Shown here: positions 2,207-24,462 of the stretch, piece by piece
How positions within the stretch are numbered: the stretch's first letter is position 1
How the letters are laid out: each line of letters begins with the position of its first letter
IMG/VR virus record: IMGVR_UViG_3300032214_000148
Span: 1-24,782 of that record
Reading direction: 5' to 3' (one strand)
Length of the DNA: 24,782 nt
Source of the DNA: a virus
Made by a program: the position numbers and the translations under genes
The notes under the pieces: model-generated
Database searches by the model: none
What the model saw: only the letters and a program-made list of their open reading frames with translations
Told to the model about the DNA's origin: nothing

Positions 2207-3841
2207 ATGGCATTATTCCCCTCTGAACAGCCAACAAATAGTTCAAGCTACGTTCATCCTAGAGATCCGCATCTCCATAGGATTGAAAATGTTATGGAGT
2301 ATGATCTCGCTGGCAAACCGTTGTTAAGGGTTGCTGCTTCATTGTCAGCTCCTAGTATTGCAGGACAGGTATCAGCATTTGGCGAACCATTGGCAATCAG
2401 TCCTACAGCAGTTATTCAGTTAGATGCTATCTACGGAACTACCTCAGATGTTATACAAACATATAACAACGGCACAGGATCAAGTGCTGGCAGCAACACA
2501 CAGTTATTTCGTGTAGAAACTGGTACTAGTCAAGGCGGTTACGGTGTTCTACGCAGTCGTAGATTCTTACGCTATCGCCCAGGACAGGGTATTATCACAC
2601 GTTACACCGCAGCTTTTACTCAAGGTGTAGCCAACAGCCTACAGTTCGCAGGACTAGCCAATCAAGAAAATCGTGTGTCATTTGGCTACGACGGTACACG
2701 ATTTGGAGTATGCCGTAGTTCGGGTGGCAAGGCCACCATTTTGCTAATGACCATAACTACGGCTCCTAATGCTGGACAGACTGCTACCATTACCCTAAAC
2801 GGTGTAGCCTATACTGTCACATTGGCTAATACCACAGCTGACGTTGCAGTACAGACTATTACCAATCGTGTAGGTGGATTTGGTGGATGGTTGTTCCAAC
2901 AGACCAACGGTGCTATGCTATGGTTAGCACCCACCCTGGGTCCAATGAATGGGGCGTTTAGTTTTACCAGCACAGGCAATGCCACTGCTACCTTTGAGGT
3001 TAAACAAGTGGGTGTAGCACAAACAGATCATTGGACCTATCAAGAAGACTGGAACATTGACAAGATGGATGGTAGCAACGCCATCGATACTAACCCCAGT
3101 GGAATGCTTTTAGACCCTACTAAACTAAATGTCTATCAAATTAACCTGCGATGGCTAGGTGCTGGTGTTATCAGCTATGCTCTAGAAGATCAAGCCTCAG
3201 GTGCAATGGTCTATGTACATCGTGAACACTATGTAAACCAACATACTGTACCGCATACACTGAATCCCAGTTTCAAAATAACCTATGCTGCCTACAACCT
3301 TACCAATACTTCAAACGTCACAGTCGTTGGTGCCAGTATGTATGCCGCGGTTGAAGGCACTATTTTCTTAAACGAACTGACTCGCAGTTATTCTTCATCA
3401 AAGACTGGTCTGGCACAAAATCAAGTTCACCATTTGCTAACAATTAAAAACTCTGTGGTTACCAACGGACTTGCTGGCGCAAACAATGGCAACTATGTAA
3501 TCAATACCAAGGAAGCCATTATCAAAAGTCTAAGCGTATCTGTACAGTCGACAGATCCTGCTAGGGTATTTTTGTTCTTTGAACCCAGTAGTTTGTCCGT
3601 GACTCACTTGTACAATCTTATTCCACGCTGTAATGAAGTTCACAGTGAAGTGACAGGTACATTTAACCTAGCTACAGATACTCCTATCTACACAGGATTG
3701 ATAGGAATCAACGGAACTATCAACGTAGACTTGAGTGATTACCGTATAACTATTCCGCCAGGCAGTCAAGTCAGCATTGCCATAACAAGTACCAACTCAG
3801 TAAGCCCTGCTACCTGTGCTCTAACCTGGAGTGAAGATTAA
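2207..3841 (+). CDS. Large virion structural / tail-fibre-like protein
   Basis: 544 residues, beta-rich, with high Thr, Ser, Asn and Gly and low Lys, typical of phage tail appendage or baseplate-attached proteins. The N-terminus (MALFPSEQPTNSSSYVHPRD) is followed by a domain containing a repeated GQTATITLNGVAYTVTLANT-type strand pair at about residues 190-215, a fold often seen in virion surface proteins. The C-terminal part (GTINVDLSDYRITIPPGSQV) also looks like a beta-sandwich. No enzymatic motif seen. It sits between the PA14 protein and a small Cys-rich protein, with TAATG overlap downstream. A precise structural role cannot be named from sequence alone. Confidence 0.7.
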   Translation: MALFPSEQPTNSSSYVHPRDPHLHRIENVMEYDLAGKPLLRVAASLSAPSIAGQVSAFGEPLAISPTAVIQLDAIYGTTSDVIQTYNNGTGSSAGSNTQLFRVETGTSQGGYGVLRSRRFLRYRPGQGIITRYTAAFTQGVANSLQFAGLANQENRVSFGYDGTRFGVCRSSGGKATILLMTITTAPNAGQTATITLNGVAYTVTLANTTADVAVQTITNRVGGFGGWLFQQTNGAMLWLAPTLGPMNGAFSFTSTGNATATFEVKQVGVAQTDHWTYQEDWNIDKMDGSNAIDTNPSGMLLDPTKLNVYQINLRWLGAGVISYALEDQASGAMVYVHREHYVNQHTVPHTLNPSFKITYAAYNLTNTSNVTVVGASMYAAVEGTIFLNELTRSYSSSKTGLAQNQVHHLLTIKNSVVTNGLAGANNGNYVINTKEAIIKSLSVSVQSTDPARVFLFFEPSSLSVTHLYNLIPRCNEVHSEVTGTFNLATDTPIYTGLIGINGTINVDLSDYRITIPPGSQVSIAITSTNSVSPATCALTWSED

Positions 3842-4242
3842 TGTATAGAAAATATATCAACATAGTAGAAGCAGCCAACAAAGGCTGTCCCATTGCCACC
3901 TACGACCTAGAAGTAAATGTCAAGAACAGACAAACAGCCATAGACAAACATCACTACGGCCCTGCCAATCCCGATGAGCCAGGCACATACTGGAAAGAAG
4001 CAGCCAAGCAGTGGAACATTGATGAGAAGACTGCCAAAACAATGACCTGTGGTAACTGTGCGGCATTTAACATATCGGACTCAATGTACAAGTGTATACA
4101 CGACGGTATGGGTGCAGAAGCCTACGCAGCTGAAAAGACCCGCGAAGCAGCAGATCTAGGCTACTGTAATCTTTTGGCCTTTAAGTGTGCCGGATCTCGT
4201 TCGTGTCAGTTATGGCTTACCGGCGGCCCTATTGTAAAATAA
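3841..4242 (+). CDS. Cys-rich protein, possible Fe-S or metal binding
   Basis: 133 residues with seven cysteines, six of them in the C-terminal half: C70-x2-C73, C85, C109, C116 and C122 (plus C16). The spacing suggests a bound metal or iron-sulfur cluster; a HiPIP-like fold is one possibility, but the canonical HiPIP spacing is not matched exactly. The N-terminal 65 residues contain HHYGPANPDEPGTYWKEAA. Start overlaps the stop of the preceding virion gene (TAATG). The next gene is an even more Cys-rich short protein, so a metal- or redox-related pair is suggested. Function unknown. Confidence 0.65.
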   Translation: MYRKYINIVEAANKGCPIATYDLEVNVKNRQTAIDKHHYGPANPDEPGTYWKEAAKQWNIDEKTAKTMTCGNCAAFNISDSMYKCIHDGMGAEAYAAEKTREAADLGYCNLLAFKCAGSRSCQLWLTGGPIVK

Positions 4243-7341: not shown

Positions 7342-7372
7342 AATTTTCTCCTTGTGTGTGTATGTCTGTACC

Positions 7373-7594: not shown

Positions 7595-7624
7595 ATGTTT
7601 CTCCTGTGTGTTAATATGTGTACT

Positions 7625-7653
7625 ACTATATATGCTTTTTGTCTAAAGAGCAA
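7625..7653 (-). promoter_or_regulatory. Sigma70-type promoter for the small-gene pair
   Basis: On the minus strand, TTGCTC (7653-7648), a 17-base spacer and TATAGT (7630-7625), about 30 bases before the start at 7594. The resulting leader is about 24 bases and contains AGGAG. Confidence 0.6.
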
Positions 7654-7667
7654 GGCAAAATGCGGTT

Positions 7668-7787: not shown

Positions 7788-7960
7788 AGATAAGATTCCT
7801 TTTGAGAATTGAATTGTCGAACATAGTGTTCTAATTGTGCGGCATCGGTAATGCCTTTGGTGTTTAGATAGCTGTCTAAACGGCTTTGGTAGGAACTTTC
7901 CGGAAACATTTCAGCTAGTCGTTCCAAGAAACCTAGCATCATTTCTGATAATTTTTTCAT
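7784..7960 (-). CDS. Small protein, DUF3563-like
   Basis: 58 residues starting at 7960 with AGAGGA seven bases upstream. The pattern LGFLERLAEMFPES, then YQSRLDSYL, then DAAQLEHYVRQF resembles the short DUF3563 proteins common in Burkholderiales and some alphaproteobacteria, where an acidic linker joins two helices ending in E-x2-(I/V)-R. The match is by eye and not certain. It is the first gene of a two-gene unit with the 39-residue protein (ATGA overlap) and is divergent from the gene at 8094. Possibly acquired from a host. Confidence 0.55.
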   Translation of the reverse strand: MKKLSEMMLGFLERLAEMFPESSYQSRLDSYLNTKGITDAAQLEHYVRQFNSQKESYL

Positions 7961-8093: not shown

Positions 8094-8378
8094 ATGAAAC
8101 TTCGCACCAGATCAATTCTGCAGGAACTTAATAGTATTGCTGAAGTACGCAGCACAGACAGCCTCATTGAAAGTCGTGCCACTAATATTATCAATTCTGC
8201 TATTAATCTGCTGGAAAGCATACACAAGCACTACGATGCTGAAAGTGCAGACGAGCTTGAGCGCCGTCTAATCAATGCCATAAAAGGACAAGATCCTAGT
8301 AAATTTACCCGTGGTGTGCGTAGAATTGCAGAATCACGTAAACAAAAAAGAAAACTAGACGAAAGCAATGAAAACTAA
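8094..8378 (+). CDS. Small T4-like phage protein with head-targeting-like N-terminus
   Basis: 94 residues, helical and strongly charged, with a basic C-terminus (RRIAESRKQKRKLDESNEN). The N-terminus MKLRTRSILQE-L carries an L-x-E motif at residues 9-11, resembling the capsid-targeting peptides that the T4 prohead protease gp21 cuts after (L/I)-x-E. A basic small protein with such a leader could be an internal head protein, but this is inference. It starts the operon containing the nucleotidyltransferase and the ligase-like protein, overlapping the former by 11 bases. Confidence 0.6.
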   Translation: MKLRTRSILQELNSIAEVRSTDSLIESRATNIINSAINLLESIHKHYDAESADELERRLINAIKGQDPSKFTRGVRRIAESRKQKRKLDESNEN

Positions 8379-9183
8379 TCTATCCGAAGGGGGCAATGTA
8401 TTCAAAGGCCCAGACAAACAATCTTTAACACAGCGTATTGCTACGGGCGATGTTGAAGAAACCATCCTCTACATCGAAAAGATCACAGGCCTAGACTTTA
8501 CCAAAGAAAAAGACTCTGATGACAAGAAGCCTGTAAAATGGTTAGGTACTACAGGACGCAAAGAAGATCCAGATGGTACATTTGAAAAGAACAGTTCTGG
8601 CGATCTTGACCTGAGCGTAGATGCCAACGAAGTAGATAAGAAATCATTTGCAGAAAAATTAATCAGCCAGTTTGGCAAAGAAAACATCAAACTCAGCGGA
8701 GATAATGTACACTGGAAGGTGCCTATCAAAGGTGATCCTGCAAACGGATTTGTGCAGGCAGACTTTATGTTTTCAGCTAATCCTAAATTCCAACAGGGAT
8801 CAATGATTGGCGGCAAAGGTGAGTTTCGTGGTGAGCATCGCCATATTGTTCTAAGCTCAATTGCCCGTGCAAGAGGTATAAAGTACAGTCCAAAACACGG
8901 CATACTAAATCCGCAGACCGACGAACTGTTGCCCAACGGCAATGATTGGAATCAGATTGCCAAAGTATTGCTAGGACAAACTGCCACAGTAAAAGACATA
9001 CGTTCAGTAGACAGTATTCTTGATTTTATTAAAAAATTGCCCAACTACGAAGAACTAGTATCAGCAGCTAGAGAAACATTGGGCAAGCAGGGTATTACTC
9101 TACCAGAGAATACGATTTCGTTTGAAAGCAAGCAAACTGGTACACCTGCCTGGTTCCGCAGAATGATGGAAGCTGTTAAATGA
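8368..9183 (+). CDS. Pol-beta-superfamily nucleotidyltransferase-like protein
   Basis: 271 residues. The minimal nucleotidyltransferase signature is visible: a Gly-rich segment (WLGTTGR, about 58-64), then SSGDLDLSVD with D79 and D81 as the paired metal ligands, and a third acidic residue D132 in VQADFMF. This is the Pol-beta fold pattern (hG-x-n-DhD, then D). The family transfers nucleotides to RNA, DNA, proteins or small molecules; the substrate here cannot be inferred. The N-terminus, MKTNLSE-G, also matches a (L/I)-x-E cleavage site. It overlaps the following ligase-like gene by four bases (ATGA), so the two are probably made in fixed ratio and act together. Confidence 0.7.
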   Translation: MKTNLSEGGNVFKGPDKQSLTQRIATGDVEETILYIEKITGLDFTKEKDSDDKKPVKWLGTTGRKEDPDGTFEKNSSGDLDLSVDANEVDKKSFAEKLISQFGKENIKLSGDNVHWKVPIKGDPANGFVQADFMFSANPKFQQGSMIGGKGEFRGEHRHIVLSSIARARGIKYSPKHGILNPQTDELLPNGNDWNQIAKVLLGQTATVKDIRSVDSILDFIKKLPNYEELVSAARETLGKQGITLPENTISFESKQTGTPAWFRRMMEAVK

Positions 9184-10283
9184 GAGCATTTGAATTTCTA
9201 ACCGAGGCTGAAGTACCTGCTCCTAAAAAAGTAGGCCGTGAGTTTAATCACCTCGAGGATCTAGTATTCACAGAGCCCGGTGGCGCTAATAAAGCAATTA
9301 AGATCTTAAAAGATTTATCTAGCCCTGCTAAAAAGATTGCTATCAAGTGGGATGGTAATCCTACAGTGTACTGGGGTCGTGATGAGGATGGTACTTTCCG
9401 TATGGTTGGTAAGAACAACTGGGGTCGTGAGGAAGGTAAGAGTTCTAGTCCTGAAGAGTTGACAGCGTTTATCAACAGCCGAGGTAAAGGTGAAGAATGG
9501 CGAGCTAAGTTTGCAGGGGATATGGCTGCAATGTGGTCAGTCTTTGAAGAAGCTACTCCTACAGACTTTCGAGGATATGTCTACGGTGACATCCTATTTC
9601 ATCCAGGCAAGCCCTACGAAGGTGCTGATGGCCGCATAAGTTTTACTCCTAATCAAACAACCTACAGTGTTAAAGTTGGTAGTCCCGAATATCAGAAGTT
9701 AGTCAAGGCAAAGATAGCTGTAGCCGCACATCAATTGTTTGACTATTTCGGAGATAAGAGCGGTAAGCCGTTTGATAAACCTGAGCTATTTGATACAAGT
9801 CCTGCATTGGCAGTCTACGGGCAAACCTATGTTAGCCATCGTCCTGCTGTAAATGCAGACAATCTAGGTAAGATCACCAAACTGGCTAGCAGTCAATCAG
9901 CAATTGATAAATTGCTAACACCGGTTCCGGGTATGGGTTATCTACAGAATGAAATTTATAGTTTTGTTAATGCACAATCCAAAGCTAAACAATTAGACAA
10001 TATCAACACAGAAGCATTTATGGCCTTTGAGCAAAAAACTCCAGCTAAGGCTGCTAAGATACAGGCACACAGCGATGCACATCCTGGCGCTATGGACGCA
10101 TTATTTGAACTTGTCCGTGAAATTATGGCAGCTAAAAACGAAGTAATTGCAGAACTAGATGCGGCTGAAGGCAGTATTACAGCAACCACAGGCGGCAAGC
10201 CTGGCGGTGAAGGCTATGTTAGCGGTGATGACAGTGTAAAACTAGTACCACGTGATCGTTGGACACCGTTTAGAGCCGATTAA
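9180..10283 (+). CDS. Ligase-fold nucleotidyltransferase, DUF6267-like, probable packaged protein
   Basis: 367 residues. The nucleotidyltransferase/ligase motif I K-x-D-G is present at K56-W-D58-G (AIKWDGNPTVY). It is followed by a motif-III-like FRGYVYGDILF at 130-140 and a motif-V-like TYSVKV at 161-166, whose lysine would contact the nucleotide phosphate. This layout fits the T4-like phage family DUF6267, related to ATP-dependent polynucleotide ligases or RNA ligases; activity is unproven. The N-terminus MRAFEFLTE-A closely matches T4 capsid-targeting sequences (MKTYQEFIAE-A), with gp21-type cleavage expected after E9. This suggests the enzyme is packaged in the head. ATGA overlap with the upstream nucleotidyltransferase. 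Confidence 0.72.
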   Translation: MRAFEFLTEAEVPAPKKVGREFNHLEDLVFTEPGGANKAIKILKDLSSPAKKIAIKWDGNPTVYWGRDEDGTFRMVGKNNWGREEGKSSSPEELTAFINSRGKGEEWRAKFAGDMAAMWSVFEEATPTDFRGYVYGDILFHPGKPYEGADGRISFTPNQTTYSVKVGSPEYQKLVKAKIAVAAHQLFDYFGDKSGKPFDKPELFDTSPALAVYGQTYVSHRPAVNADNLGKITKLASSQSAIDKLLTPVPGMGYLQNEIYSFVNAQSKAKQLDNINTEAFMAFEQKTPAKAAKIQAHSDAHPGAMDALFELVREIMAAKNEVIAELDAAEGSITATTGGKPGGEGYVSGDDSVKLVPRDRWTPFRAD

Positions 10284-10314
10284 GGTCTCTAAACCCCTGA
10301 TTTTTTCTTTCCAA

Positions 10315-10322
10315 TATAAATA
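10315..10322 (+). promoter_or_regulatory. T4 late promoter, exact TATAAATA
   Basis: An exact match to the T4 late consensus, 31 bases after the stop at 10283, with transcription start expected near 10328, immediately before a stable hairpin. Drives the virion gene at 10369. Confidence 0.75.
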
Positions 10323-10330
10323 ATAATGCC

Positions 10331-10347
10331 GATCCCGGAGCGGGATC
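10331..10347 (+). promoter_or_regulatory. 5'-UTR stabilising hairpin
   Basis: Perfect 7-bp stem GATCCCG / CGGGATC with a GAG loop at the predicted 5' end of the mRNA. No T-run, so not a terminator. 5'-terminal hairpins protect abundant phage mRNAs from RNase E. A strong AAGGAG ribosome site follows at 10355-10360. Confidence 0.65.
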
Positions 10348-10368
10348 ATTGATTAAGGAGAAAATATC

Positions 10369-10722
10369 ATGGCAACATTAACAAGTTTAACAGTTGGTTC
10401 TACAACACTTGGTGCAAACTACGAGCAAATCGTAAACACACAAGGTATTGGCGGTCGTACACTAGTATGCACACTAGTTAAAGACGCAGGCGATATGACA
10501 GAGGCAGAGCTAGTAGCTTGCTTGAAGTCTATTGAGCAGGCAGGTGGTGACGGTACTGGTACAGACCAAGGTGGTCCAGATGCGTTTACAGTAGTTGGTA
10601 TCGCTGATTTCGACGGTTCTGACCCAGCATACATCATGCTACAAGGTACAGGCACACCAATTTCAGCACCAGTAACTGGTTTCACACTAGCTGTTGTTGC
10701 AACATTTGCACTAGCAGTATAA
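10369..10722 (+). CDS. Small abundant virion protein (probable decoration/tail protein)
   Basis: 117 residues, low in charge and basic residues, rich in Thr, Gly, Ala and Val; predicted beta-sandwich with a hydrophobic C-terminal strand (TGFTLAVVATFALAV). No signal peptide or enzyme motif. Its expression signals are the strongest in the window: exact TATAAATA, 5' hairpin, AAGGAG seven bases before the ATG, single-gene transcript and a strong terminator. The codons are also unusually uniform. This suggests a very abundant structural product such as a head-decoration or tail-surface protein. The family is not recognised. Confidence 0.7.
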   Translation: MATLTSLTVGSTTLGANYEQIVNTQGIGGRTLVCTLVKDAGDMTEAELVACLKSIEQAGGDGTGTDQGGPDAFTVVGIADFDGSDPAYIMLQGTGTPISAPVTGFTLAVVATFALAV

Positions 10723-10745
10723 TATTTCCTAGGGATGGGAAGTAG

Positions 10746-10771
10746 GGGCGGATTTATTCCGCCCTTTTTTT
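10746..10771 (+). terminator. Strong rho-independent terminator
   Basis: GGGCGGA (10746-10752), TTTAT loop, TCCGCCC (10758-10764), then seven T (10765-10771). Ends the single-gene transcript of the protein at 10369. Confidence 0.92.
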
Positions 10772-10794
10772 ATCTGCGTAAATAGTAGCATATT

Positions 10795-11190
10795 ATGCCT
10801 AGATATCAAATCATTACTCTCGTTGACATTACCCGGACATCCCCCTCGAGATCCGAAACAGATAAACTAAAGTTAGCACAGCAGGCCAACTTCAATAGCC
10901 TACTTCAGGCTATTGGTCTAAGAGCCAACGTATCCTGGATAACTGATCCTTTTAAGAAAACTGGTAGACTGCCCGATCCGTTAGACGGTGCTGCCACTCA
11001 CTGGCAATGGGTTTTTGATGTTGAACGAGATGATGTATTTTTAAAAGACAACGATCCAGTTGGCCTGTTAAAAGACGATCTAAATGGGATTCCGATTATT
11101 GGAAACTTAACTAATTCTGTAGAACTCGATCCAGCCTGTTTCTTTAGTTACAGTGACAGGACTAATATTTGGGTCAAAGAAATAGCATAA
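10795..11190 (+). CDS. Conserved T4-like phage protein of unknown function
   Basis: 131 residues, soluble, with segments I recall as recurrent in marine T4-like phages: RYQIITLVDITRTSPSR at the start, QQANFNSLLQAIGLRANVSW near 30-47, and DDLNGIPIIGNLTNSVELDP near 93-112. No catalytic motif or membrane segment. The start at 10795 has only a weak ribosome site; CGTAAATA at 10777-10784 is a degenerate late-type promoter just after the terminator. Likely virion- or assembly-associated given its neighbours. Confidence 0.72.
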   Translation: MPRYQIITLVDITRTSPSRSETDKLKLAQQANFNSLLQAIGLRANVSWITDPFKKTGRLPDPLDGAATHWQWVFDVERDDVFLKDNDPVGLLKDDLNGIPIIGNLTNSVELDPACFFSYSDRTNIWVKEIA

Positions 11191-11194
11191 TTGT

Positions 11195-11202
11195 TATAAA
11201 TA
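11195..11202 (+). promoter_or_regulatory. T4 late promoter, exact TATAAATA
   Basis: Exact late consensus five bases after the stop at 11190; it would make an mRNA with a leader of about 80 bases before the start at 11292. Confidence 0.7.
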
Positions 11203-11291
11203 AAACATACAGGCAAATCACCATTAGGCATTCTTAACTTAGGCACGTACCCGTACGGGGCTCGACTTAACATACAAAGGAAACAGCCATA
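11203..11291 (+). promoter_or_regulatory. Long 5' leader with repeats and palindrome
   Basis: An 89-base untranslated leader. It contains TTAGGCA twice (11224 and 11239 areas), AACATACA at both ends (near 11203 and 11269), and the palindrome CCCGTACGGG (11250-11259). Ribosome site AAGGA at 11277-11281, ten bases before the ATG. No known riboswitch recognised. Confidence 0.4.
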
Positions 11292-11600
11292 ATGGCCACA
11301 ACAGCAGAACGACTTGGTATAGTAGAAACCAAGGTAGCAAATTTAGACGAAAAGATTGACGAGCTCAAAGTAGACGTTAAAGATATGCACGACTGCTTAG
11401 ACAAGACCAGAGACGGTCTAATGGGCAAATTAGACGAAATGTATTCTGCATCCTGCACACAGCATTCTGAGCTGGCCAACAAAATCAGCGAACTAGAAAA
11501 ATTTAGAATGAAGTGGGTCTATATGATATCCGGTGGTGTAGCAGTATTGGGCGTAGTGTCTGGACATCTAGACAAGTTTGCCAAGTTCTTTGGTATGTAA
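11292..11600 (+). CDS. Coiled-coil protein with one C-terminal membrane helix
   Basis: 102 residues. Residues about 5-70 are a heptad-rich coiled coil (AERLGIVETKVANLDEKIDE and so on). One membrane helix spans residues 75-93 (WVYMISGGVAVLGVVSG), followed by a short basic amphipathic tail. This architecture (long cytoplasmic coiled coil and tail anchor) occurs in XhlA-type lysis accessory proteins and some holin-like proteins, so a lysis or membrane role is possible but not shown. Expressed alone from the exact late promoter at 11195 and closed by the hairpin at 11618. Confidence 0.7.
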   Translation: MATTAERLGIVETKVANLDEKIDELKVDVKDMHDCLDKTRDGLMGKLDEMYSASCTQHSELANKISELEKFRMKWVYMISGGVAVLGVVSGHLDKFAKFFGM

Positions 11601-11617
11601 AATATACCCACTTAAAT

Positions 11618-11639
11618 AAGGACCATAGGTCCTTTTTTT
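11618..11639 (+). terminator. Terminator-like hairpin abutting a start codon
   Basis: AAGGACC (11618-11624), ATA loop, GGTCCTT (11628-11634), with T-run to 11639; the next base begins the ATG of the following gene. The only Shine-Dalgarno-like sequence for that gene (AAGGA) is in the 5' arm of the stem. Confidence 0.85.
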
Positions 11640-12065
11640 ATGACAGACATACGTAGACAACTTGATCGAGTTGTCAGCAAAGAGTTAAGCCAAAACATCA
11701 TTCCCGTTCGTACAGATGCAGGAATCCTTGTGGGCTCAGTGTTGATAGTCAGTGAAGGATCAATTAAACATCTGTACAGAAACAACGAATTACTGTACAA
11801 TAACGTAAGTCTAAACGCTGTGGCTGTTAGGTTAGCTAATATACTGGCCCGGCAGCGATCCAGCATATTTGCCGATAAAATCTACGAAATAGATCAAGAA
11901 TACAGCAAATGGTTTATAGACAGCCAAACCCTTTTAAAAAATTACTACAGTGCTAAAAAATCCAAAGATTTTAATCGAGCAGATACCCTTTGGGCTAGGT
12001 ACTGTGAAAGCAGAGATCGAGCTGTCTCTGCCAAAGACCTAGCTACAAGTTTAAGTTTACTCTGA
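11640..12065 (+). CDS. Conserved hypothetical T4-like phage protein
   Basis: 141 residues, helical. A basic N-terminus (MTDIRRQLDRVVSKELSQN) is followed by a small beta region (GILVGSVLIVSEGSIKHLYR) and two long helices with Tyr/Lys-rich KNYYSAKKSKDFNRADTLWA. Function not recognised. The ATG directly follows the T-run of a terminator-like hairpin and has no ribosome site at normal spacing, so expression may depend on read-through and RNA folding. The degenerate late motif CTTAAATAAG at 11611-11620 would start transcription inside the hairpin. Its stop lies against the late promoter of the next gene. Confidence 0.68.
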   Translation: MTDIRRQLDRVVSKELSQNIIPVRTDAGILVGSVLIVSEGSIKHLYRNNELLYNNVSLNAVAVRLANILARQRSSIFADKIYEIDQEYSKWFIDSQTLLKNYYSAKKSKDFNRADTLWARYCESRDRAVSAKDLATSLSLL

Positions 12066-12072
12066 ATAAATA
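12065..12072 (+). promoter_or_regulatory. T4-type late promoter motif
   Basis: AATAAATA overlapping the stop at 12065, 25 bases before the start at 12097. Confidence 0.55.
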
Positions 12073-12096
12073 GTATATCAATCTGGATCCCCTAAA

Positions 12097-13782
12097 ATGA
12101 GAACAACAGACCTTTTTAAATTTAATAGATCGCCCAAGAGACTAAACGAATCTCTGCAAAAAACTTTCGGCACCAAGATCAATTTTGAAGATTTTGATAC
12201 TGCAAAACTAGAGGATGCCCGTAATAAACTACGCACTCAGATTCACACAGCTCGATCAGAAAGCAGTTTTAACGAAGATCTAGAAAATGAAGCTCTAACC
12301 AAAGCACAGTTTATGCACGATGCCATTGTTGCAGAACTAATGGATCGAGAAGAACACATTGTTGATACTACTGCTACAGAAGATAGTGGTTCTATAGAAG
12401 ATCAAGCCGCAAAAATTATTTCACGATTCGATCAAAATATGAATGAAATTGGTGGCTACGGAGATCCAGATTATAAAGCTGCAATTGCTGCTCTACAACA
12501 AGGTGATGTGGATTCGGCAATAGCTGCGGTTGTTGATACATACGGCAATAAGGATGGCGGCGAAGTACGCGGTATGGATGCATACATTGAAGACCTACAA
12601 GATGAGTTTGAATATCTTGTTCAAGGCGAAGATGGAGATGAGGGTGGAGACACAGATGATGCCTATGCTCTAGCATCAGCAGGTCACGGTTCAGATGAAG
12701 ACTACGGTGACTTTCCAGAAAGTATGGAAGAACGTGTGAGAGATCCAGAAGACTGGGATGAAGGCAACACAGAACCACCAAACAACTTTGCTGTTTATAT
12801 CAACGGCAAGAAGTGGAAAGTATTCAAAGGTCGTGGACAGTACGCCGACGACTATCGCGAACAACAACATTATCAGCAACTAAGAGATTGGGCTCGTAAG
12901 AAATCAGAAGCCACTGGTAAAAAGTGGGAAGTTTCTATTACTGGTGAAAACCCAACTGAAAGTGTTCAAACAGAATTAAGTACAAACACCTTAAAGTCTT
13001 ATCAAGATAAAGCAGGTAAAGAAATTGTACACACAATGACTTCCGGCGACCATATGACCACAGACAAGAGTGCAAAGAAAGTTATGAATCGTATGAAAGG
13101 CAGCGAAAAAGCTGACAACAAGATCTGGAAAAGAAACGAAAGCGCACCACCAACAGCCAAAGGCGAGCGTATGGTCAAACATATTAAAGCTGGCTATGCT
13201 AAAGATGGTAAATTAACAGATAAAGAAAAAGGTATTGCCTATGCAACTGCATGGAAGCAACACAACAAAGAATCAGTCGAAACAGGAGATGATATGACTA
13301 GACTACAAGAAGGTGAAATCCAGCAAGCGTCTGCGATTGTCACAGCAAAAACAATGGTTGACAGAGTAGGTCGTTGGATTGAAGAACTTTCTGGTATGGA
13401 GAATGATACACTCCTACAGTTAGGTGATTCTATTCGTGACGAAATGAGTCAAGAGCAGGCCAAGGCTTTTATCGAAGCTGTGGCTCCCGCAATTCAACAG
13501 GCACTAGAAACTCTAAAAGGCACACGTGACACACTATCTAGTGGAGTTCGTAGTCTAGCTAGTGGTGAGCAGCCTACAGATATGTTAGGTGCAGAGCCAG
13601 GCGCAGATATGGCAGAGCCAGATGCCATGAACGCTGAAGAACCAGTTCCGGGTGTTGACGCAGGTGCAGAAGATGAGTTTGCCGCAGCAGAACCAGCAGC
13701 CGGCGGTATGGAAACAGCAGGTCGTGAGCAACGCGAAAGTATTGACCGCCAAAGCCGTTTGATGAAAATCCTAGCAGGTTAA
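12097..13782 (+). CDS. Large acidic internal-head-like multidomain protein
   Basis: 561 residues, modular and acidic. Residues 1-90 (RSPKRLNESLQKTFGTKINF, then AKLEDARNKLRTQI and KAQFMHDAIVAEL) resemble an N-terminal module shared by several virion proteins of marine T4-like phages; it contains L-N-E-S, a (L/I)-x-E type site. Residues 228-290 (NNFAVYINGKKWKVFKGRG) form a small basic domain. A Lys-rich region around 355-395 (KHIKAGYAKDGKLTDKEKG, then IAYATAWKQ) is followed by a helical domain (SAIVTAKTMVDRVGRWIEEL) and an acidic Ala/Glu/Pro tail. The composition suits a scaffold/core or packaged protein. First gene of a three-gene unit whose other members have similar head-type N-termini. Confidence 0.65.
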   Translation: MRTTDLFKFNRSPKRLNESLQKTFGTKINFEDFDTAKLEDARNKLRTQIHTARSESSFNEDLENEALTKAQFMHDAIVAELMDREEHIVDTTATEDSGSIEDQAAKIISRFDQNMNEIGGYGDPDYKAAIAALQQGDVDSAIAAVVDTYGNKDGGEVRGMDAYIEDLQDEFEYLVQGEDGDEGGDTDDAYALASAGHGSDEDYGDFPESMEERVRDPEDWDEGNTEPPNNFAVYINGKKWKVFKGRGQYADDYREQQHYQQLRDWARKKSEATGKKWEVSITGENPTESVQTELSTNTLKSYQDKAGKEIVHTMTSGDHMTTDKSAKKVMNRMKGSEKADNKIWKRNESAPPTAKGERMVKHIKAGYAKDGKLTDKEKGIAYATAWKQHNKESVETGDDMTRLQEGEIQQASAIVTAKTMVDRVGRWIEELSGMENDTLLQLGDSIRDEMSQEQAKAFIEAVAPAIQQALETLKGTRDTLSSGVRSLASGEQPTDMLGAEPGADMAEPDAMNAEEPVPGVDAGAEDEFAAAEPAAGGMETAGREQRESIDRQSRLMKILAG

Positions 13783-13783
13783 G

Positions 13784-14131
13784 ATGAAACTATCTGATAT
13801 CTCAGAAGATCAACAACTCGATGAGTTGTTGCCTGCTCTTGGTGCAGTAGGTTCCGCACTAGGAGGCGCAGCAAAAGCAGCCGGTAGTGCAATAGCTACA
13901 GGAGCAAAGGCAGTAGGAAGCGCAGTAGGCGGTGCTGTCAAACAAGGTGCCCAGGCTATTGGTCAAGGAATGCAACAGGCTACAGATCCTAAAGCTCAGG
14001 CATTGGCAGTTCTACAAACTAAAGAACGCAAGGATGGGATTATGCAGCAGATGAAAGAGATCGATCAGCAGATGCAGGATCTTACCAAACAGAAAAGCGA
14101 ACTACAAAAAGAATTGGCGACTATAAAATGA
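13784..14131 (+). CDS. Ala/Gly-zipper protein with head-targeting-like N-terminus
   Basis: 115 residues in three parts. The N-terminus MKLSDISE-D has an I-S-E site like T4 gp21 cleavage sites. Residues 20-65 are an Ala/Gly-rich low-complexity helix with glycine-zipper spacing (ALGAVGSALGGAAKAAGSAI and onward). Residues 75-115 are a coiled coil (KDGIMQQMKEIDQQMQDLTK). A glycine zipper suggests membrane insertion or helix packing, so an internal head or injected membrane-active protein is conceivable. It starts one base after the upstream gene and overlaps the next by four bases (ATGA). Confidence 0.65.
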   Translation: MKLSDISEDQQLDELLPALGAVGSALGGAAKAAGSAIATGAKAVGSAVGGAVKQGAQAIGQGMQQATDPKAQALAVLQTKERKDGIMQQMKEIDQQMQDLTKQKSELQKELATIK

Positions 14132-14514
14132 GATTTTTTGAATTTGCAGGTGACGACGAAGGTGATAGATTCATTATGGTTCTTAGAAACTATATTGGTC
14201 GTGCGGCATCAAAGAAAGCACCAGCTAATTTAAATTGGAATGGACTAAACAGAGTTCTATCTACCAGTGGTTTTGAATTGACCGCAGACTACGAAACATT
14301 CAAAGCAATGTATGATGGTAGTCCTGCAATTCAGGCAATGGTAAAGAACTTTAACGAACGCGGTATTGAACTTAACGTGCCCGGAGCTCCAGAAGAAGAA
14401 CCTAAAGGTGACGGAACTAAAACTCCAGCAGACAGTCAGGCTGCTGTGGACCAAACTGCCGCATCAGCCGCAGCTGGACAACTTGCTCAAAGTCAGGCCA
14501 CTCCCCAGGCTTGA
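14128..14514 (+). CDS. Hypothetical phage protein, probable head-associated
   Basis: 128 residues. An N-terminal globular part (MRFFEFAGDDEGDRFIMVLR, then VLSTSGFELTADYETFKAMY) is followed by a disordered Ala/Gln/Pro-rich tail from about residue 90. The start (M-R-F-F-E-F) resembles the MRAFEF start of the ligase-like protein, although no (L/I)-x-E site follows at the expected distance. ATGA overlap with the upstream zipper protein. Its stop lies inside the -35 box of the promoter for the exonuclease gene. Function unknown. Confidence 0.62.
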   Translation: MRFFEFAGDDEGDRFIMVLRNYIGRAASKKAPANLNWNGLNRVLSTSGFELTADYETFKAMYDGSPAIQAMVKNFNERGIELNVPGAPEEEPKGDGTKTPADSQAAVDQTAASAAAGQLAQSQATPQA

Positions 14515-14539
14515 CACTCTAAAACAAAACGTGTAATAT
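14511..14539 (+). promoter_or_regulatory. Sigma70 promoter, leaderless or near-leaderless
   Basis: TTGACA (14511-14516, exact), 17-base spacer, TAATAT (14534-14539), with seven bases to the ATG at 14547. No Shine-Dalgarno fits in between. The -35 box overlaps the stop of the preceding late gene. Probably drives early expression of the exonuclease. Confidence 0.75.
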
Positions 14540-14546
14540 ATACAGT

Positions 14547-15281
14547 ATGACTGACATACTAGAATTTACCCCACCGCCTTTCGTTGAGCGATTCCAATAT
14601 AAAAATTGTGTTCAAATCAATGACCCAGTGACACGCAAACGTGTCTATCAAACTCCAGACGGAGAAAGCCTACCTAGCGTGACCACTATCCTTAGTGCTA
14701 CTAAAGATATGACTCACCTAAATGAGTGGAAGAAGCGTGTAGGCGTTGAAAAAGCACAACAAATCACTACAGAAGCCGCCGGTGTTGGTACTGCAATGCA
14801 CTCTAATTTAGAACGCTTTATTGCAGGCATCCAACGTCAACCTGGAAATAATCCTGTTCACGTGCAGGCCAATAAAATGGCCGATGTTATTATTCAAAAC
14901 GGACTTAGCAAAGTTAACGAAGTTTGGGCTATGGAACAGAGTTTGTACTATCCAGGATTGTTCTCTGGAACAACTGATCTTGTAGGTGTACACGAAGGCG
15001 AACCTGCTGTGATGGATTATAAGCAGACTAACAAGCCAAAAAAAGCAGAATGGGTAGAGGATTATTATCTACAGCTAATGGCCTATATTATGGCTCACAA
15101 CGAAGTCTACGGCACTGATATTAAAAAAGGTGTTATCTTTATGTGTAGCAGAGCCTTTGAATACCAGCAATTTACCCTAGAACCTAAAGACTTTAATAAA
15201 TGGCAGGATGCCTGGTTAAGCAAGGTTGAAGAGTACTACACAACGGGTCTGCAAGGGTTGAAGCCTCTACTAACCCAATAA
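14547..15281 (+). CDS. PD-(D/E)xK exonuclease, RecB/MGME1-like
   Basis: 244 residues with the RecB-family nuclease motifs in order: H85 (GTAMH), E130 (WAMEQSLYY), D144 (FSGTTDLVG), D157-Y-K159 (AVMDYKQTN) and Q176-L-M-A-Y180 (YYLQLMAYIM), the QxxxY motif of RecB, Cas4 and MGME1. These residues coordinate Mg2+ for single-strand DNA exonuclease activity. T4-like marine phages often encode such enzymes, thought to act in replication, recombination or host-DNA degradation. Unlike the late genes around it, it has its own sigma70-type promoter, consistent with early expression. Confidence 0.88.
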   Translation: MTDILEFTPPPFVERFQYKNCVQINDPVTRKRVYQTPDGESLPSVTTILSATKDMTHLNEWKKRVGVEKAQQITTEAAGVGTAMHSNLERFIAGIQRQPGNNPVHVQANKMADVIIQNGLSKVNEVWAMEQSLYYPGLFSGTTDLVGVHEGEPAVMDYKQTNKPKKAEWVEDYYLQLMAYIMAHNEVYGTDIKKGVIFMCSRAFEYQQFTLEPKDFNKWQDAWLSKVEEYYTTGLQGLKPLLTQ

Positions 15282-15289
15282 GATAAATA
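15282..15289 (+). promoter_or_regulatory. T4-type late promoter motif
   Basis: GATAAATA right after the exonuclease stop and 22 bases before the tail-spike start at 15311. Confidence 0.55.
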
Positions 15290-15310
15290 CCCTATAACGG
15301 GAATTTATCT

Positions 15311-17260
15311 ATGGCTGTCGTACAGATATCGAAAATACAACAAAGACGCGGGCAAAAACTACTCAACGGAATGCCCCAATTAAGCGCGGCTGAATTAGCC
15401 TGGGCAGTAGACACTCAAGAACTTTTTATAGGTAACGGCAGCGTAGCAGAAGGTGCTCCTTATGTTGGTAACACAAGAATACTAACAGAGCACGATAATT
15501 TACTAGAGCTAGCAGGCAGCTACAAGTTCGCTGAACCAGACGTATCGATCACGGCCAGTGTGTTTAGATCTATACAGTCGAAGATAGACGAGATTGAAGT
15601 TAGCCTGATTGACTTTGGTCCTGAACCCGACCCTAGTACCAATCACACTCCCTATCTAGAAACAGCTCTTACACAGCTTTTTAGAAATGCTGATACTAGG
15701 TTTAGAAAAAAATTAAAGATTCCTAACGGACACTATTATTTTTTTACAGTATTAAAAATACCTAGCAATGTTATCATTGAAGGCGAGACTAGAGACGGTG
15801 TGATATTAGATGTGGGTTCTACTGGAATTGAATTTGTCACCGAAGCTGGAACCGATAGTCTAAATTTTACCAGTACAGATCATCCAGATAATGTTCTAAT
15901 CAGTAATCTAACAATTAATTATGTTACTGGCGAAACTGATATTACAGGACTTAAACATTCTGTATTCAAAGATGTAACTTGGACATCTACCTATGTTCTA
16001 GGTGATACAGTTTCAACTCCTGTGCTGGCTTCTCAGAGCTATGACTTATCTGCTGTGGCAAGTACTGGTAATATTAATATTACTGGCACCGGCGTAACAT
16101 CAGGTACCCTTACTCAAGTTTTTACCAGCAACGTAGTTACTACAGTTAATGATTTGGTTACTGCTTTAAATTCTGACAGTTTATTTGATAATAATTTTGA
16201 AGCTAGTCGTATTGCTGAATCATTGATCATTACGGCTAAAAATACCAGCGGACTGAGTGCTCTTGAGATCGAAACTTATTTCTTGGTTAGAGTTACTCCG
16301 ACTAATACTACAGCACAGTTTGAAGTTGATCCTACTCCTACCCAGGCATCGAGTGGTATTAACAATACTCCGGCTGCACTATCTTGGGAAAATGCCGCAT
16401 ATGGAACAAGAACTACTGAAGTAGTATTTGATGGCTGTGTATTTGAATCTGCTGCTTTGCCTTTAAAGTGTATTCACACCCACGGCGAATCTGATAACTT
16501 TGACACTGAATTAGAATTTAAAGGTTGTACATTTTTTGTTTGCGACACAGGAGTGTATCTCGAAGGTGTGGCCGATAGACAAGTCAACAATTGGGAATTT
16601 ATTGATTGTGTTTTTGAAGAAATTGCCAAACAGGCAGTGTTCGTCACCTATGGTGTTGGCACAATTATTAAAGATACAAAATTTAAAAACGTGGGCAATG
16701 ATACCTTTGGTGCTGCCTATCCTTCTACTGAGATGGTTAAATTTGGCACCAAGTATGGTAACGTGGTTGAGAACTGTCAAAGTGATCGACATCAAGCTGG
16801 CGGGCTAACACTTTTAGATACTAAAGTAGGAGTACCAGAAGTTATCAATGCTGGTAACGTTACTTTCACTAATGATTATTATGCCAGCATATACCTAAGT
16901 GATACCTTTACACCATTGGCTGTTTTTTCATCTCAACAGAGATTTATCATAATTGATTACACTCTAACTTTGGGAGAATACAATAGAAAAGGCGTAATTA
17001 CACTATCGGTTAATGATGATGTTCAACAAACCGATGCTCACGTTGCTATTGCAGATAATTTTACTTATTCGACTAGTTTAGTCGCTGACCCAGGAGGAAA
17101 TATGATTACTAATTTTGAATTCAATGCAGAGTTAAAAGACAATGATGATACCACAGGTGATTCTACTCAAAGTGTTGACACAATATTATTGACATACAAG
17201 AATCCTCTTCAATTTAACTCTACGGGAACAATCTCTTACACAGTAAGATACGGTGTTTGA
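15311..17260 (+). CDS. Tail spike/fibre with Mtd-type N-terminus and beta-helix
   Basis: 649 residues. Residues 3-60 resemble the N-terminal attachment module of major tropism determinant and other tail fibres (ISKIQQRRGQ, then LSAAELAWAVDTQELFIGNG). From about residue 140 a right-handed beta-helix follows, with stacked turns such as NVIIEGETRDGVILDVGS, NVLISNLTINYV, VVFDGCVFES, LEFKGCTFFVCDTGVYLEG and WEFIDCVFEE, as in pectin-lyase-fold tail spikes. A compact domain (about 225-355) interrupts the helix. A C-terminal beta domain (about 540-649) may cap or trimerise it. Host recognition, possibly polysaccharide cleavage, is inferred; no lyase catalytic residues are certain. Overlaps the next gene by eight bases. 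Confidence 0.78.
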   Translation: MAVVQISKIQQRRGQKLLNGMPQLSAAELAWAVDTQELFIGNGSVAEGAPYVGNTRILTEHDNLLELAGSYKFAEPDVSITASVFRSIQSKIDEIEVSLIDFGPEPDPSTNHTPYLETALTQLFRNADTRFRKKLKIPNGHYYFFTVLKIPSNVIIEGETRDGVILDVGSTGIEFVTEAGTDSLNFTSTDHPDNVLISNLTINYVTGETDITGLKHSVFKDVTWTSTYVLGDTVSTPVLASQSYDLSAVASTGNINITGTGVTSGTLTQVFTSNVVTTVNDLVTALNSDSLFDNNFEASRIAESLIITAKNTSGLSALEIETYFLVRVTPTNTTAQFEVDPTPTQASSGINNTPAALSWENAAYGTRTTEVVFDGCVFESAALPLKCIHTHGESDNFDTELEFKGCTFFVCDTGVYLEGVADRQVNNWEFIDCVFEEIAKQAVFVTYGVGTIIKDTKFKNVGNDTFGAAYPSTEMVKFGTKYGNVVENCQSDRHQAGGLTLLDTKVGVPEVINAGNVTFTNDYYASIYLSDTFTPLAVFSSQQRFIIIDYTLTLGEYNRKGVITLSVNDDVQQTDAHVAIADNFTYSTSLVADPGGNMITNFEFNAELKDNDDTTGDSTQSVDTILLTYKNPLQFNSTGTISYTVRYGV

Positions 17261-17678
17261 TCTATATGGTAACGATAGATTAACAGAATGGAAAAAGTTT
17301 AGGGACACTCTGGAAACGGTCCCTAATCCTTTAGAAGAAGTTTCCAAACTTTGGAGCCGAGCTCCGTTTGTTAATCACTATCTCAATCCCCAATGTCCAT
17401 CCAAATGGCCAGATCCTTGGCATTTGGTTCTTGACGGCAAGCTAGACGATCTTGCAATCTGTCTTGGAATGCTGTACACTATTAAATTAACACAGCGGTT
17501 TATGACCACTGTTTGCGAGATACATATGTCTATGCTACCGAGAGATTCGTCCCCTAGATTTTATCTAGTAGTAGATAACTCATATGTTCTCAACTACGAG
17601 CCCAGGAAAATCCACGATCTAACGGTTCTGCAGGACTTCCAAACCAACACCATATGGCGCTGCGATCAGTTGCTATAA
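17253..17678 (+). CDS. Hypothetical T4-like phage protein
   Basis: 141 residues, rich in Trp, Leu and Pro, with PSKWPDPWHLVLDGKLDDLA near residues 49-68 and IWRCDQLL at the end. No recognised motif. I recall comparable proteins near tail-fibre genes of marine T4-like phages. The start lies inside the last codons of the tail spike, so it is probably co-translated and may act in tail appendage assembly, but that is inference from position. Its stop overlaps an exact TATAAATA. Confidence 0.68.
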   Translation: MFDLYGNDRLTEWKKFRDTLETVPNPLEEVSKLWSRAPFVNHYLNPQCPSKWPDPWHLVLDGKLDDLAICLGMLYTIKLTQRFMTTVCEIHMSMLPRDSSPRFYLVVDNSYVLNYEPRKIHDLTVLQDFQTNTIWRCDQLL

Positions 17679-17681
17679 ATA
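17674..17681 (+). promoter_or_regulatory. T4-type late promoter, exact TATAAATA
   Basis: Overlaps the stop codon of the upstream gene and lies 23 bases before nrdA. An RNR operon with a late-type element is notable, since RNR genes are early or middle in T4. Confidence 0.6.
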
Positions 17682-17703
17682 TCGAACTAGAATAGAGACA
17701 TAG

Positions 17704-20040
17704 ATGCAAATAACAGTAATTAAAAGAAGCGGACAAAAAGAACCACTCGCCGTAGAGAAGTGGCAGGCGCAGGTAGCTAAGGTTTGCAAGGGGATAGCAG
17801 ATGTTAGCCAGTCGATGATAGAGATCAAAGCTCAACCTCATTTTTATGATGGTATTACTACAAAAGAAATTGACGGTATTACTCTAAGAGCTATTGTAGA
17901 TCTCATCGACGTCGAACACAATCCTGATGTTGGACACGTTAACTATCAATACGTGGCAGGCAAACAAAGACTTAGTATGCTACGCAAAGATGTCTATGGC
18001 GATTACGAACCTCCACATTTATATGAGATAGTAAAGAAAAATGTAGCCACCGGCCTTTACACTAGTGAACTATTAGAATGGTACTCTGAAGATGATTGGA
18101 ATAGGATGAACGATATGATCGATCATTCTAAAGACGAAGAATACGGTTATGCTGCAATCGAACAACTGATTGAAAAATATCTAGTTAAAAATCGTAGCAC
18201 CAAGGAAATTTATGAAACTCCACAGGTTAGATATATGGTCGCGGCCGCTACTGTATTTCACAAAGAAGAACCGAATGCAGCGAGAATGCGCTACATCAAA
18301 GAATATTACAATGCGGCATCGGATGGCCTATTTACTTTGGCTACTCCTGTGCTTGCTGGGCTTGGCACTCCTACTAAGCAGTTCAGTAGTTGCGTTCTTA
18401 TTCGCAGTGACGATGATCTTGATAGCATTTTTGCTAGCGGAGAGATGATGGCCAAGTATGCCAGCAAACGTGCTGGTATTGGTTTAGAGATTGGACGCTT
18501 ACGTCCATTAGGATCGCCCATCCGTGGTGGTGAGATTATGCACACAGGTATGATACCATTCTTGAAGAAGTGGTTTGGTGACCTACGTTCGTGCAGTCAA
18601 GGAGGCATTCGTAATGCTAGTGCTACTGTATTCTATCCTATTTGGCATCATCAGTTTGATGATCTTATTGTACTTAAGAACAACCAAGGAACAGAAGAAA
18701 CCCGAGTCCGTCATATGGATTATGGGGTTGTGCTTAGTGCCTTCTTCTGGAGACGATTTAAAAACAAACAAGACATAACATTCTTTGATCCAAATGAAGT
18801 GCCTGACTTGTATGAAGCTTTCTACAAGAATACAGAACTGTTTGAAGAATTGTATGTAAAATATGAAAAGCGCAAGGACCTTCGTAAGAAGTCTATGAGC
18901 GCCGAGGAAGTGTTCAAGAGTGGTATACTGAAAGAACGCACAGACACGGGTCGAATATATCTCGTATTCATTGATAATGTAATGAACCAAGGTCCTTTTG
19001 ATCCTGAGTACCACACGATTTATCAAAGTAACTTGTGCTGTGAGATCCTATTACCCACCCGTCCATTTAAGCGATTAGACGACGAGAGTGGACGCATAGC
19101 GTTATGTACACTGGGATCTATCAACTGGGGATCGTTCCGAAATCCAGAGGATATGCGTAGAGCCTGTAGGATTCTACAGCGTAGCCTGTGTAACATTCTT
19201 GACTATCAAGATTTCTTGTCAATTCAAAGTAAATTAAGCAACGACGAGATACAACCATTAGGGATTGGTGTAACTAATCTAGCCTATTGGCACGCCAAGC
19301 GTGGTCTGAGATACGGTGACAAAGATGCACTGGCAGAGGTAAAGTCGTGGATGGAACATCAGGCTTTTTATCTAACAGAAGCCACAGTTGAAATGGCGAA
19401 AGAACGCGGAGCCTGCAAAGATTCAGCATATACACGTTACGGCAAAGGACAGTTTCCTTGGGAACATCGAGCCAAAGGTGTTAATGAGCTTGCAGACTTT
19501 ACTCCTGAACTTGATTGGGAACCTCTACGTAGAGATATGAAAGAGTACGGAGTTAGAAACGCCACCCTTATGGCCATTGCTCCTGTAGAATCTAGCAGCG
19601 TGGTTATCAATTCTACTAATGGTATTGAAATGCCTATGTCGCTTATTAGTACTAAAGAATCTAAGGCAGGTTCGTTCACACAGGTAGTTCCAGAATACAA
19701 TAGGTTGAAGAATAAGTATCAACTAATGTGGGAACAGAAAGACTGCGATGGTTATTTGAAAACTTCTGCGGTACTTGCTGCCTATGTTGATCAAAGTATT
19801 TCAACTAATACATTTTATAACCCCGCACACTTTGCAGATCGCAGAGTGCCTACAACGCTAATTGCTAAGAATTTAATGCAGGCACATATGTGGGGATTAA
19901 AGACATTCTACTATAGTTTAATTAATAAAGCAGGTAGCAAAGCTATCGCCGAACCTACCCCAGAAGTACAGTATAACGGACACAACGGATATCATCTAGA
20001 AATAGAACTAGAAGATGACTGCGAGTCCTGTAAGTTATGA
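17704..20040 (+). CDS. nrdA: Ribonucleoside-diphosphate reductase class Ia, alpha subunit
   Basis: 778 residues, full length for NrdA. It reduces ribonucleoside diphosphates to deoxy forms with the radical supplied by NrdB. Conserved residues: C230 in FSSCVLI and C468 in ALCTLGSIN (redox pair), N443, C445 and E447 in NLCCEI (active site), Y736-Y737 in KTFYYSL (radical transfer), and C773-x2-C776 in the tail CESCKL (shuttle to glutaredoxin or thioredoxin). An N-terminal ATP-cone-like segment (ITVIKRSGQKEPLAVEKW) suggests dATP regulation. First gene of the RNR operon; it overlaps the next gene by four bases and shares the operon with nrdB and a glutaredoxin. Confidence 0.97.
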   Translation: MQITVIKRSGQKEPLAVEKWQAQVAKVCKGIADVSQSMIEIKAQPHFYDGITTKEIDGITLRAIVDLIDVEHNPDVGHVNYQYVAGKQRLSMLRKDVYGDYEPPHLYEIVKKNVATGLYTSELLEWYSEDDWNRMNDMIDHSKDEEYGYAAIEQLIEKYLVKNRSTKEIYETPQVRYMVAAATVFHKEEPNAARMRYIKEYYNAASDGLFTLATPVLAGLGTPTKQFSSCVLIRSDDDLDSIFASGEMMAKYASKRAGIGLEIGRLRPLGSPIRGGEIMHTGMIPFLKKWFGDLRSCSQGGIRNASATVFYPIWHHQFDDLIVLKNNQGTEETRVRHMDYGVVLSAFFWRRFKNKQDITFFDPNEVPDLYEAFYKNTELFEELYVKYEKRKDLRKKSMSAEEVFKSGILKERTDTGRIYLVFIDNVMNQGPFDPEYHTIYQSNLCCEILLPTRPFKRLDDESGRIALCTLGSINWGSFRNPEDMRRACRILQRSLCNILDYQDFLSIQSKLSNDEIQPLGIGVTNLAYWHAKRGLRYGDKDALAEVKSWMEHQAFYLTEATVEMAKERGACKDSAYTRYGKGQFPWEHRAKGVNELADFTPELDWEPLRRDMKEYGVRNATLMAIAPVESSSVVINSTNGIEMPMSLISTKESKAGSFTQVVPEYNRLKNKYQLMWEQKDCDGYLKTSAVLAAYVDQSISTNTFYNPAHFADRRVPTTLIAKNLMQAHMWGLKTFYYSLINKAGSKAIAEPTPEVQYNGHNGYHLEIELEDDCESCKL

Positions 20041-20486
20041 AAACATTAAGAGAATACATTGATTTAATTACAGAGTCAACAGAAGTTAATGATGACTGGT
20101 TCAAAGCCGGAGCATTTAAAACTTTTAAAAGGCCAGCTGAAGAAAAATATGAAATTGCTACAGAACCAGGAACCGTTGACACATTAGAAGGTCCTGTTAG
20201 ATACGAAGCAGGGCATTATATTATGACTGGACCAAAAGGTGAGAAGTATCCCATAAGTCCAGAGAAGTTTAAAAATCTCAAAGACGATCAAGGAGATGGA
20301 GTTGCTACTCCAAAAAAAATCTTTAAAGTAGCTAAACTTGCAGACCACGACGGTGTGCTACACACTAGTTGGGGTGATCTCAAATATACCAAAGGTAACG
20401 ATTACATTGTACGTCACGGCGAAGGCGACTACGGTGCTGTAAAAAAAGATATTTTTAAACAAACATACGAGACATCAAATGAGTAA
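20037..20486 (+). CDS. PGDYG-like protein with capsid-targeting-like N-terminus
   Basis: 149 residues. The N-terminus MKTLREYIDLITE-S matches T4 internal-protein leaders (MKTYQEFIAE-A) in length, charge and the I-T-E cleavage site. The rest has two related repeats: residues about 45-85 (GHYIMTGPKGEKYPISPEKF) and 98-145 (GNDYIVRHGEGDYGAVKKDI). The second holds a GDYG motif like that of the PGDYG family of unknown function. It lies between nrdA and nrdB with overlaps of 4 and 8 bases, which is unusual. Either a packaged head protein has been placed in the RNR operon, or the leader-like N-terminus has another purpose here. Confidence 0.65.
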   Translation: MKTLREYIDLITESTEVNDDWFKAGAFKTFKRPAEEKYEIATEPGTVDTLEGPVRYEAGHYIMTGPKGEKYPISPEKFKNLKDDQGDGVATPKKIFKVAKLADHDGVLHTSWGDLKYTKGNDYIVRHGEGDYGAVKKDIFKQTYETSNE

Positions 20487-24448: not shown

Positions 24449-24462
24449 AAGAATTGTTGTAA

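Follow-up and report, generated by a model that had tools for sequence, protein, structure and literature searches.

Predicted T4-type capsid-targeting leaders on polymerase-like, ligase-like and other proteins of an uncultivated freshwater jumbo phage

Does an uncultivated giant phage send proteins into its next host together with its DNA, using the type of N-terminal leader known from phage T4? The question is raised by the IMG/VR record IMGVR_UViG_3300032214_000148, a 24,782-base fragment of a T4-like jumbo phage (the window analysed here covers this entire record). Six of its open reading frames, starting at positions 8094, 8368, 9180, 12097, 13784 and 20037, had been proposed in an initial annotation to encode capsid-targeting leaders, i.e. 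short basic or hydrophobic N-terminal peptides ending in (L/I)-x-E, the cleavage consensus of the T4 prohead protease gp21. Coordinates and N-termini of all six were confirmed. In the T4 model, the leader docks the protein, gp21 cleaves after Glu, and the product is retained in the head and enters the cell with the DNA (PMC3012670, PMC5694885, PMC12373910); many injected internal proteins of T-even phages were discovered via this leader (PMC12373910). The T4 reference sequences are MKTYQEFIAE/A of IPII and IPIII and FLTE/A of gp23, the slash marking the cut.

Our comparative analysis makes it likely that T4-type leaders, which would be removed by a gp21-like protease before injection of the cargo, are present on 9180, 8368, 20037 and an additional protein, 3841, and probably also on 12097 and 13784. 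Genes are named by their start positions in the window (proteins of the related contig G001 likewise by number). P1 denotes the Glu before the predicted cut, P3 the L/I, P2 the residue between them and P1' the residue after the cut. The relevant features are as follows.

3841..3870, plus strand: additional leader MYRKYINIVE, predicted cut after E10
8094..8378, plus strand: small conserved virion protein (homologues annotated as virion structural); its supposed leader probably belongs to the domain
8368..8388, plus strand: leader MKTNLSE, predicted cut after E7, predicted mature N-terminus GGNVFK
8368..9183, plus strand: family X DNA polymerase-like nucleotidyltransferase (AlphaFold model match, invariant catalytic pattern)
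9180..9206, plus strand: leader MRAFEFLTE of the DUF6267 protein, predicted cut after E9 (FLTE/A)
9180..10283, plus strand: DUF6267 protein, modelled as an ATP-dependent RNA/DNA ligase-like nucleotidyltransferase (Pfam, invariant motifs, structural matches)
12097..12150, plus strand: candidate leader MRTTDLFKFNRSPKRLNE, predicted cut after E18
13784..13825, plus strand: candidate leader MKLSDISEDQQLDE, revised cut after E14 (LDE/L), not after E8
14128..14514, plus strand: leader-like start MRFFEF with no (L/I)-x-E and no conserved site in the family
20037..20075, plus strand: leader MKTLREYIDLITE, predicted cut after E13
20037..20486, plus strand: PGDYG-domain protein between nrdA and nrdB (Pfam PGDYG 1.7e-09, residues 52-144)

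The source is an uncultivated freshwater giant (jumbo) T4-like phage lineage. The DUF6267 gene has 259 relatives among viral contigs, one of them on the 353-kb contig G001. Of the 37 genes called in the window, about 25 are represented on G001 by orthologues, and 8094-21579 forms a block that shares synteny with the stretch from gp41 to nrdAB in phage RaK2.

Among 55 distinct homologues of 8368, P1 is Glu (E7) and P3 is Leu or Ile (position 5) in 55 of 55. The leader varies in length from 6 to 10 residues and its upstream residues are hypervariable (mean entropy 2.33 vs 0.67 in the body), while L/I-x-E/GGNVFK remains constant. The homologues from Atu_ph07 (Agrobacterium) and Phosso (Sinorhizobium) are leaderless, beginning MGGRAF and MGGAAF, with a Met that directly precedes the predicted mature Gly-Gly of 8368 and with no in-frame upstream ATG in either. 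The 8368 leader is disordered in the structure model. The remainder of the AlphaFold model resembles family X DNA polymerases: it aligns with Pol lambda/beta/mu at a VIA Z of 9.6 (181 residues, 3.6 A), all VIA matches listed being Pol beta, lambda or mu, and Foldseek gives an E of 2.6e-3. The nucleotidyltransferase pattern G[ST]-x-G...D-x-D...D is present as the invariant G60-T-T-G63, D79-L-D81 and D132 (GTTG...SGDLDL...D132). Sequence searches of the PDB, including that with 8368, matched no relatives.

The predicted cut in 9180, FLTE/A, is identical in its residues to that of T4 gp23. Across 57 distinct homologues P1 is Glu and P3 is Leu or Ile, with ten different residues at P2 (column conservation of E9, 98%, and of L/I7, 100%). 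The Pfam DUF6267 match (1.4e-18) begins only at residue 23, and the leader is disordered in the model (predicted local distance difference test score, pLDDT, < 50). In 13 loci a cassette, KWSKKYKSSINC...KGFSQKAHC, is inserted immediately after the leader, and leader and cassette together also occur in a different open reading frame (locus L035). Conversely, the DUF6267 proteins of cyanophages and of XaC1 have no leader, though adjacent genes there bear leaders (MRFLDFIKE/A in P-TIM40, MISFDQFLSE/K in S-CRM01); these neighbours include a cytidylyltransferase-like protein (P-TIM40) and a kinase-like protein (S-CRM01). With respect to its body, 9180 is modelled as similar to ATP-dependent RNA/DNA ligases: motif I, K-x-D-G, appears as K56-W-D-G59, invariant in 27 sequences; Y135-G-D137, E344-G-Y346 and K354 are invariant as well, and EGY344-346 and K354 were read by eye as ligase motifs IV and V. 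Nearly all listed VIA matches of the model are ligases or related transferases, the top ones being ligases, at weak scores (Z <= 5.4). A search of the open-access literature returned no paper naming DUF6267. The profile phrog_455 matches the start of the DUF6267 protein and a more internal part of the cytidylyltransferase, suggesting that some phages have the two fused.

For 20037, 36 homologues were examined, and nearly all have an (L/I)-x-E leader (L149 and L169 being exceptions or unclear cases); the leader sequences differ and the body is conserved. The same PGDYG domain occurs in unrelated siphophages, and the alignments mostly begin at residues 21-47, behind the leader. Homologues of 3841, a protein absent from the initial annotation, are found in 80 loci and keep P1 and P3 in all N-termini recovered, including MYRKYINIVE/A, MRSYISLIE/A, MRQYINILE/A and MRKYITIVE/A. 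Within the leader families the P1 codon alternates between GAA and GAG, the Glu remaining unchanged. In these four conserved families, 9180, 8368, 20037 and 3841, a short N-terminal peptide ending in (L/I)-x-E is predicted as a leader, and the comparisons show a single leader type on unrelated proteins, with bodies that also exist without it.

The motif is conserved also in the two remaining candidate families, with weaker diagnostic value. The 37 distinct genes of the 12097 family have Glu at P1, L/I at P3 and Ser at P1' in 37 of 37 each (column conservation of E18, 98%); the whole N-terminus is conserved, making this plausible leader less diagnostic. The protein at 12097-13782 (plus strand) also contains KGERMVKHIKxGYAKDGKLTDKEKxIAYATAWK, a segment found inside several cyanophage proteins that looks like a small mobile cassette. 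The originally named site of 13784, ISE-D (E8), was rejected, as it is lost in relatives (e.g. MKLKEFSQDQKLDE), and the conserved site is the one at E14: among 19 sequences E14 and L12 are conserved, P2 is D, N, S or R, and LDE/(L/I)LP persists. We conclude that 13784 probably carries a capsid-targeting leader, with LDE/L as its site.

The original set of six therefore has to be amended. Its assignment of T4-type leaders to 9180, 8368 and 20037 is upheld by family conservation, and that of 8094 is withdrawn, since the motif there lies within a conserved domain. Homology of 8094 to PA5oct and Phosso proteins begins at residue 5 and thus spans the N-terminus, and the Glu is gone in the RaK2 and GAP32 homologues; the N-terminus of the family is uniformly invariant, so that the column comparison is uninformative. 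This protein, whose homologues in RaK2, GAP32, PA5oct and Atu_ph07 are annotated as virion structural proteins, is probably without a leader. In position, 14128 corresponds to ORF136 of RaK2, which is annotated as a virion protein and starts MKFRDIVKITE/D; the profile match is weak, and each directly precedes an exonuclease gene.

A gp21-like protease, the presence of which was among the checks named with the original proposal, does exist in the lineage: syntenic G001 has a homologue at 219,269 (Peptidase_S77, E 1.6e-24) in which the catalytic segments GEL-x-HP and GVSSRG known from T4 gp21 are retained. The G001 gene between gp21 and gp23, i.e. at the gp22 position, contains 18 (L/I)-x-E vs 6.9 expected, the top excess of 446 proteins, and its RaK2 counterpart contains 24 vs 7.1 expected (p 3e-7, rank 1 of 261), as expected of a scaffold digested by a gp21-type protease. 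In the major capsid protein of G001, KYLAE/S stands at a position like that of FLTE/A in T4 gp23. Another G001 protein, 269523 (MKTFKEYLAE/G), matches from residue 1 a PHROG that bears the name virion structural protein; in the 269523 family L-x-E is retained, P2 being A, S, V, T or F. Additional leader proteins of G001 include one cytidylyltransferase-like and one nucleotidyltransferase-domain protein. G001 136580 (L088:16580-17134) has the leader MKLYEILTE/G, a CWPGHRKVGT motif and, at its C-terminus, a DUF6321 domain.

Several observations weigh against this interpretation, and some of them bear on the alternative that (L/I)-x-E is common by chance in short hydrophobic starts and that six were picked from many open reading frames. 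The bare motif is near background, at about one protein in five, which disqualifies its counting as proof: a scan of the first 22 residues finds it in 14 of the 37 genes of the window, where 6.0 were expected, and in 109 of the 446 genes of G001 (24%, against an expected 80 or 18%), an N-terminal excess of only ~1.4-2.3x. A requirement for MK/MR and a hydrophobic residue sharpens the count, but a non-Glu pattern, M[KR]...hydrophobic-[LI]-x-[DQKSTN], is equally enriched (28 vs ~7-8 expected), so that hydrophobic N-termini explain part of the excess, and enrichment of M[KR]...[LI]-x-E alone was rejected as evidence on account of this confounding. The motif search for further members did find a tight T4-like pattern, M[KR].{1,9}[DEN][FYWIL][LI].E, 8 times in G001, where internal positions or shuffles lead one to expect 0.2-0.3 (of 20 N-terminal slots of this pattern, 8 hold Glu, vs 7% at internal positions), but the pattern was picked after inspection of the data, and the case was therefore rested on comparisons among relatives. 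Even there, the conserved (L/I)-x-E column pair, absent in most control families of the window, appears in two of them, 7784 and 11292 (both probably helical), so the column-pair comparison is not perfectly specific. In RaK2 a tight leader marks 6 of 33 annotated virion proteins and 8 of the 224 remaining proteins (p 0.004, rising to 0.0125 when the window is widened), for a length window likewise picked after data inspection; enrichment in annotated virion proteins was not significant with looser patterns, nor when M[KR] was required (2 of 33 vs 11 of 224). No gp21 gene was found within the 24.8-kb window, the record being a fragment. Finally, the PA5oct homologue of 8368, gp253, was marked as a structural protein by electrospray ionization tandem mass spectrometry (ESI-MS/MS) and has no obvious (L/I)-x-E leader (MSGNAFGQLEP), which indicates that a leader is not always required for packaging; PA5oct may use another signal on this protein. 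Coincidence fits 8094 and the first site proposed for 13784. It does not account for P3 and P1 being fixed while P2 is free, for leaders being swapped, or for leaderless homologues that begin at the predicted cut; these data largely refute it for 9180, 8368 and 20037, and overall we regard it as very improbable.

According to the interpretation that we favor, each leader, a movable module set on unrelated bodies, would dock its protein into the prohead core; the phage gp21-type serine protease would then cut after the Glu of (L/I)-x-E, and the mature protein would stay inside the head, be packaged along with the DNA and enter the next host together with it. The conserved N-termini might instead be protein-protein docking peptides that are never cleaved, the Glu serving in binding, and 14128, which retains MRFFEF without any (L/I)-x-E site, could be taken as an example. 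In 8368, however, the residues immediately preceding L-x-E are hypervariable, and homologues begin at the cut point; this rather marks the Glu as a processing site and makes uncleaved docking improbable. It is also conceivable, if unlikely, that the leaders do target the core and are cut but that the proteins work within the head, in scaffolding or DNA condensation, and not in the next host. Several leader proteins are indeed small, basic or of low complexity (136245 and 209963 in G001, 13784 in the window), but 8368, 9180 and G001 133582 and 303064 are nucleotidyltransferase-like and a leader-bearing protein of S-CRM01 is kinase-like, activities that are more sensible in a cell. At least two of the cargo bodies are modelled as nucleic-acid enzymes, polymerase-like and ligase-like, and leaders on these suggest that enzymes are probably loaded into the phage head and delivered to the host together with the DNA. 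A more specific scenario is put forward only tentatively, as possible but rather doubtful: that the overlapping genes 8368 and 9180 encode a gap-filling and nick-sealing pair, packed and injected by widespread uncultivated freshwater jumbo T4-like phages, by which incoming phage DNA (or host tRNA) would be repaired before phage gene expression.

Other genes of the window deserve a brief description. A fatty acid desaturase gene (6301-7005, plus strand; Pfam FA_desaturase 4.4e-15), a host-type lipid gene on a phage, is kept in 47 related records. It is followed by three small conserved minus-strand genes (7072-7960) with clear ribosome-binding sites, lying within a plus-strand region; Pfam gave no significant match for 7072 or 7373, and PHROG none for 7072 or 7784. 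The plus-strand gene 1248-2204 encodes a protein with a GLEYA/PA14 adhesin-type domain, possibly a tail adhesin, and 5070-5537 (plus strand) a Staphylococcal-nuclease-like protein with a hydrophobic start resembling a signal peptide. ARAGORN calls a transfer-messenger RNA-like gene at 24425-24782 (plus strand), reaching the record end (predicted end 24817), with the tag ANDDVYAMAA; the call, possibly a false one, overlaps cold-shock gene 24245 at the end of the latter.

Should the leader have the same meaning in related jumbo phages and cyanophages, the injected proteome of phages that cannot be cultured could be listed by scanning sequences, and the polymerase-like, ligase-like, cytidylyltransferase-like and kinase-like enzymes described here would be candidate first actors in a newly infected cell. 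The open-access literature search returned no paper joining capsid-targeting leaders with metagenomic phages.

Among characterized systems, the ejection proteins of phiKZ and SPN3US are packed in the head and cut after Glu by a gp21-related S80 prohead protease, gp175/gp245 (PMC5694885). The proteins described here would likewise be packed in the head and cut after Glu by a gp21-related protease, but several phiKZ/SPN3US propeptides exceed 100 residues and carry the motif S/A-x-E, as compared with 6-18 residues and L/I-x-E here. Rak2-like phages (RaK2, GAP32, Atu_ph07) share the head-protein locus between the gp41 helicase and nrdAB, with an 8094 homologue and several virion proteins, some of which have leader-like starts (e.g. 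RaK2 ORF136); unlike in the window, the 8368 homologues of Atu_ph07 and Phosso lack leaders, and no DUF6267 homologue was found in the stretches of RaK2 and GAP32 that were read. A close parallel is offered by the capsid-targeting sequence of T4 (internal proteins I-III, Alt) and gp21: here too an MK/MR start opens a short leader whose end, hydrophobic-(L/I)-x-E, is followed by a small residue; unrelated bodies carry one type of leader; the lineage has a gp21 homologue; and the protein at the gp22 position is rich in (L/I)-x-E. The leaders of these uncultivated freshwater jumbo phages are more varied than those of T4, down to 6 residues (a length shared by the leader of T4 Alt). The leader cargo of T4 consists of anti-restriction inhibitors and ADP-ribosyltransferase, that of the window includes proteins modelled as polymerase-like and ligase-like; the leader system itself is of an already known kind, and what is new is cargo differing from the known T4 set.

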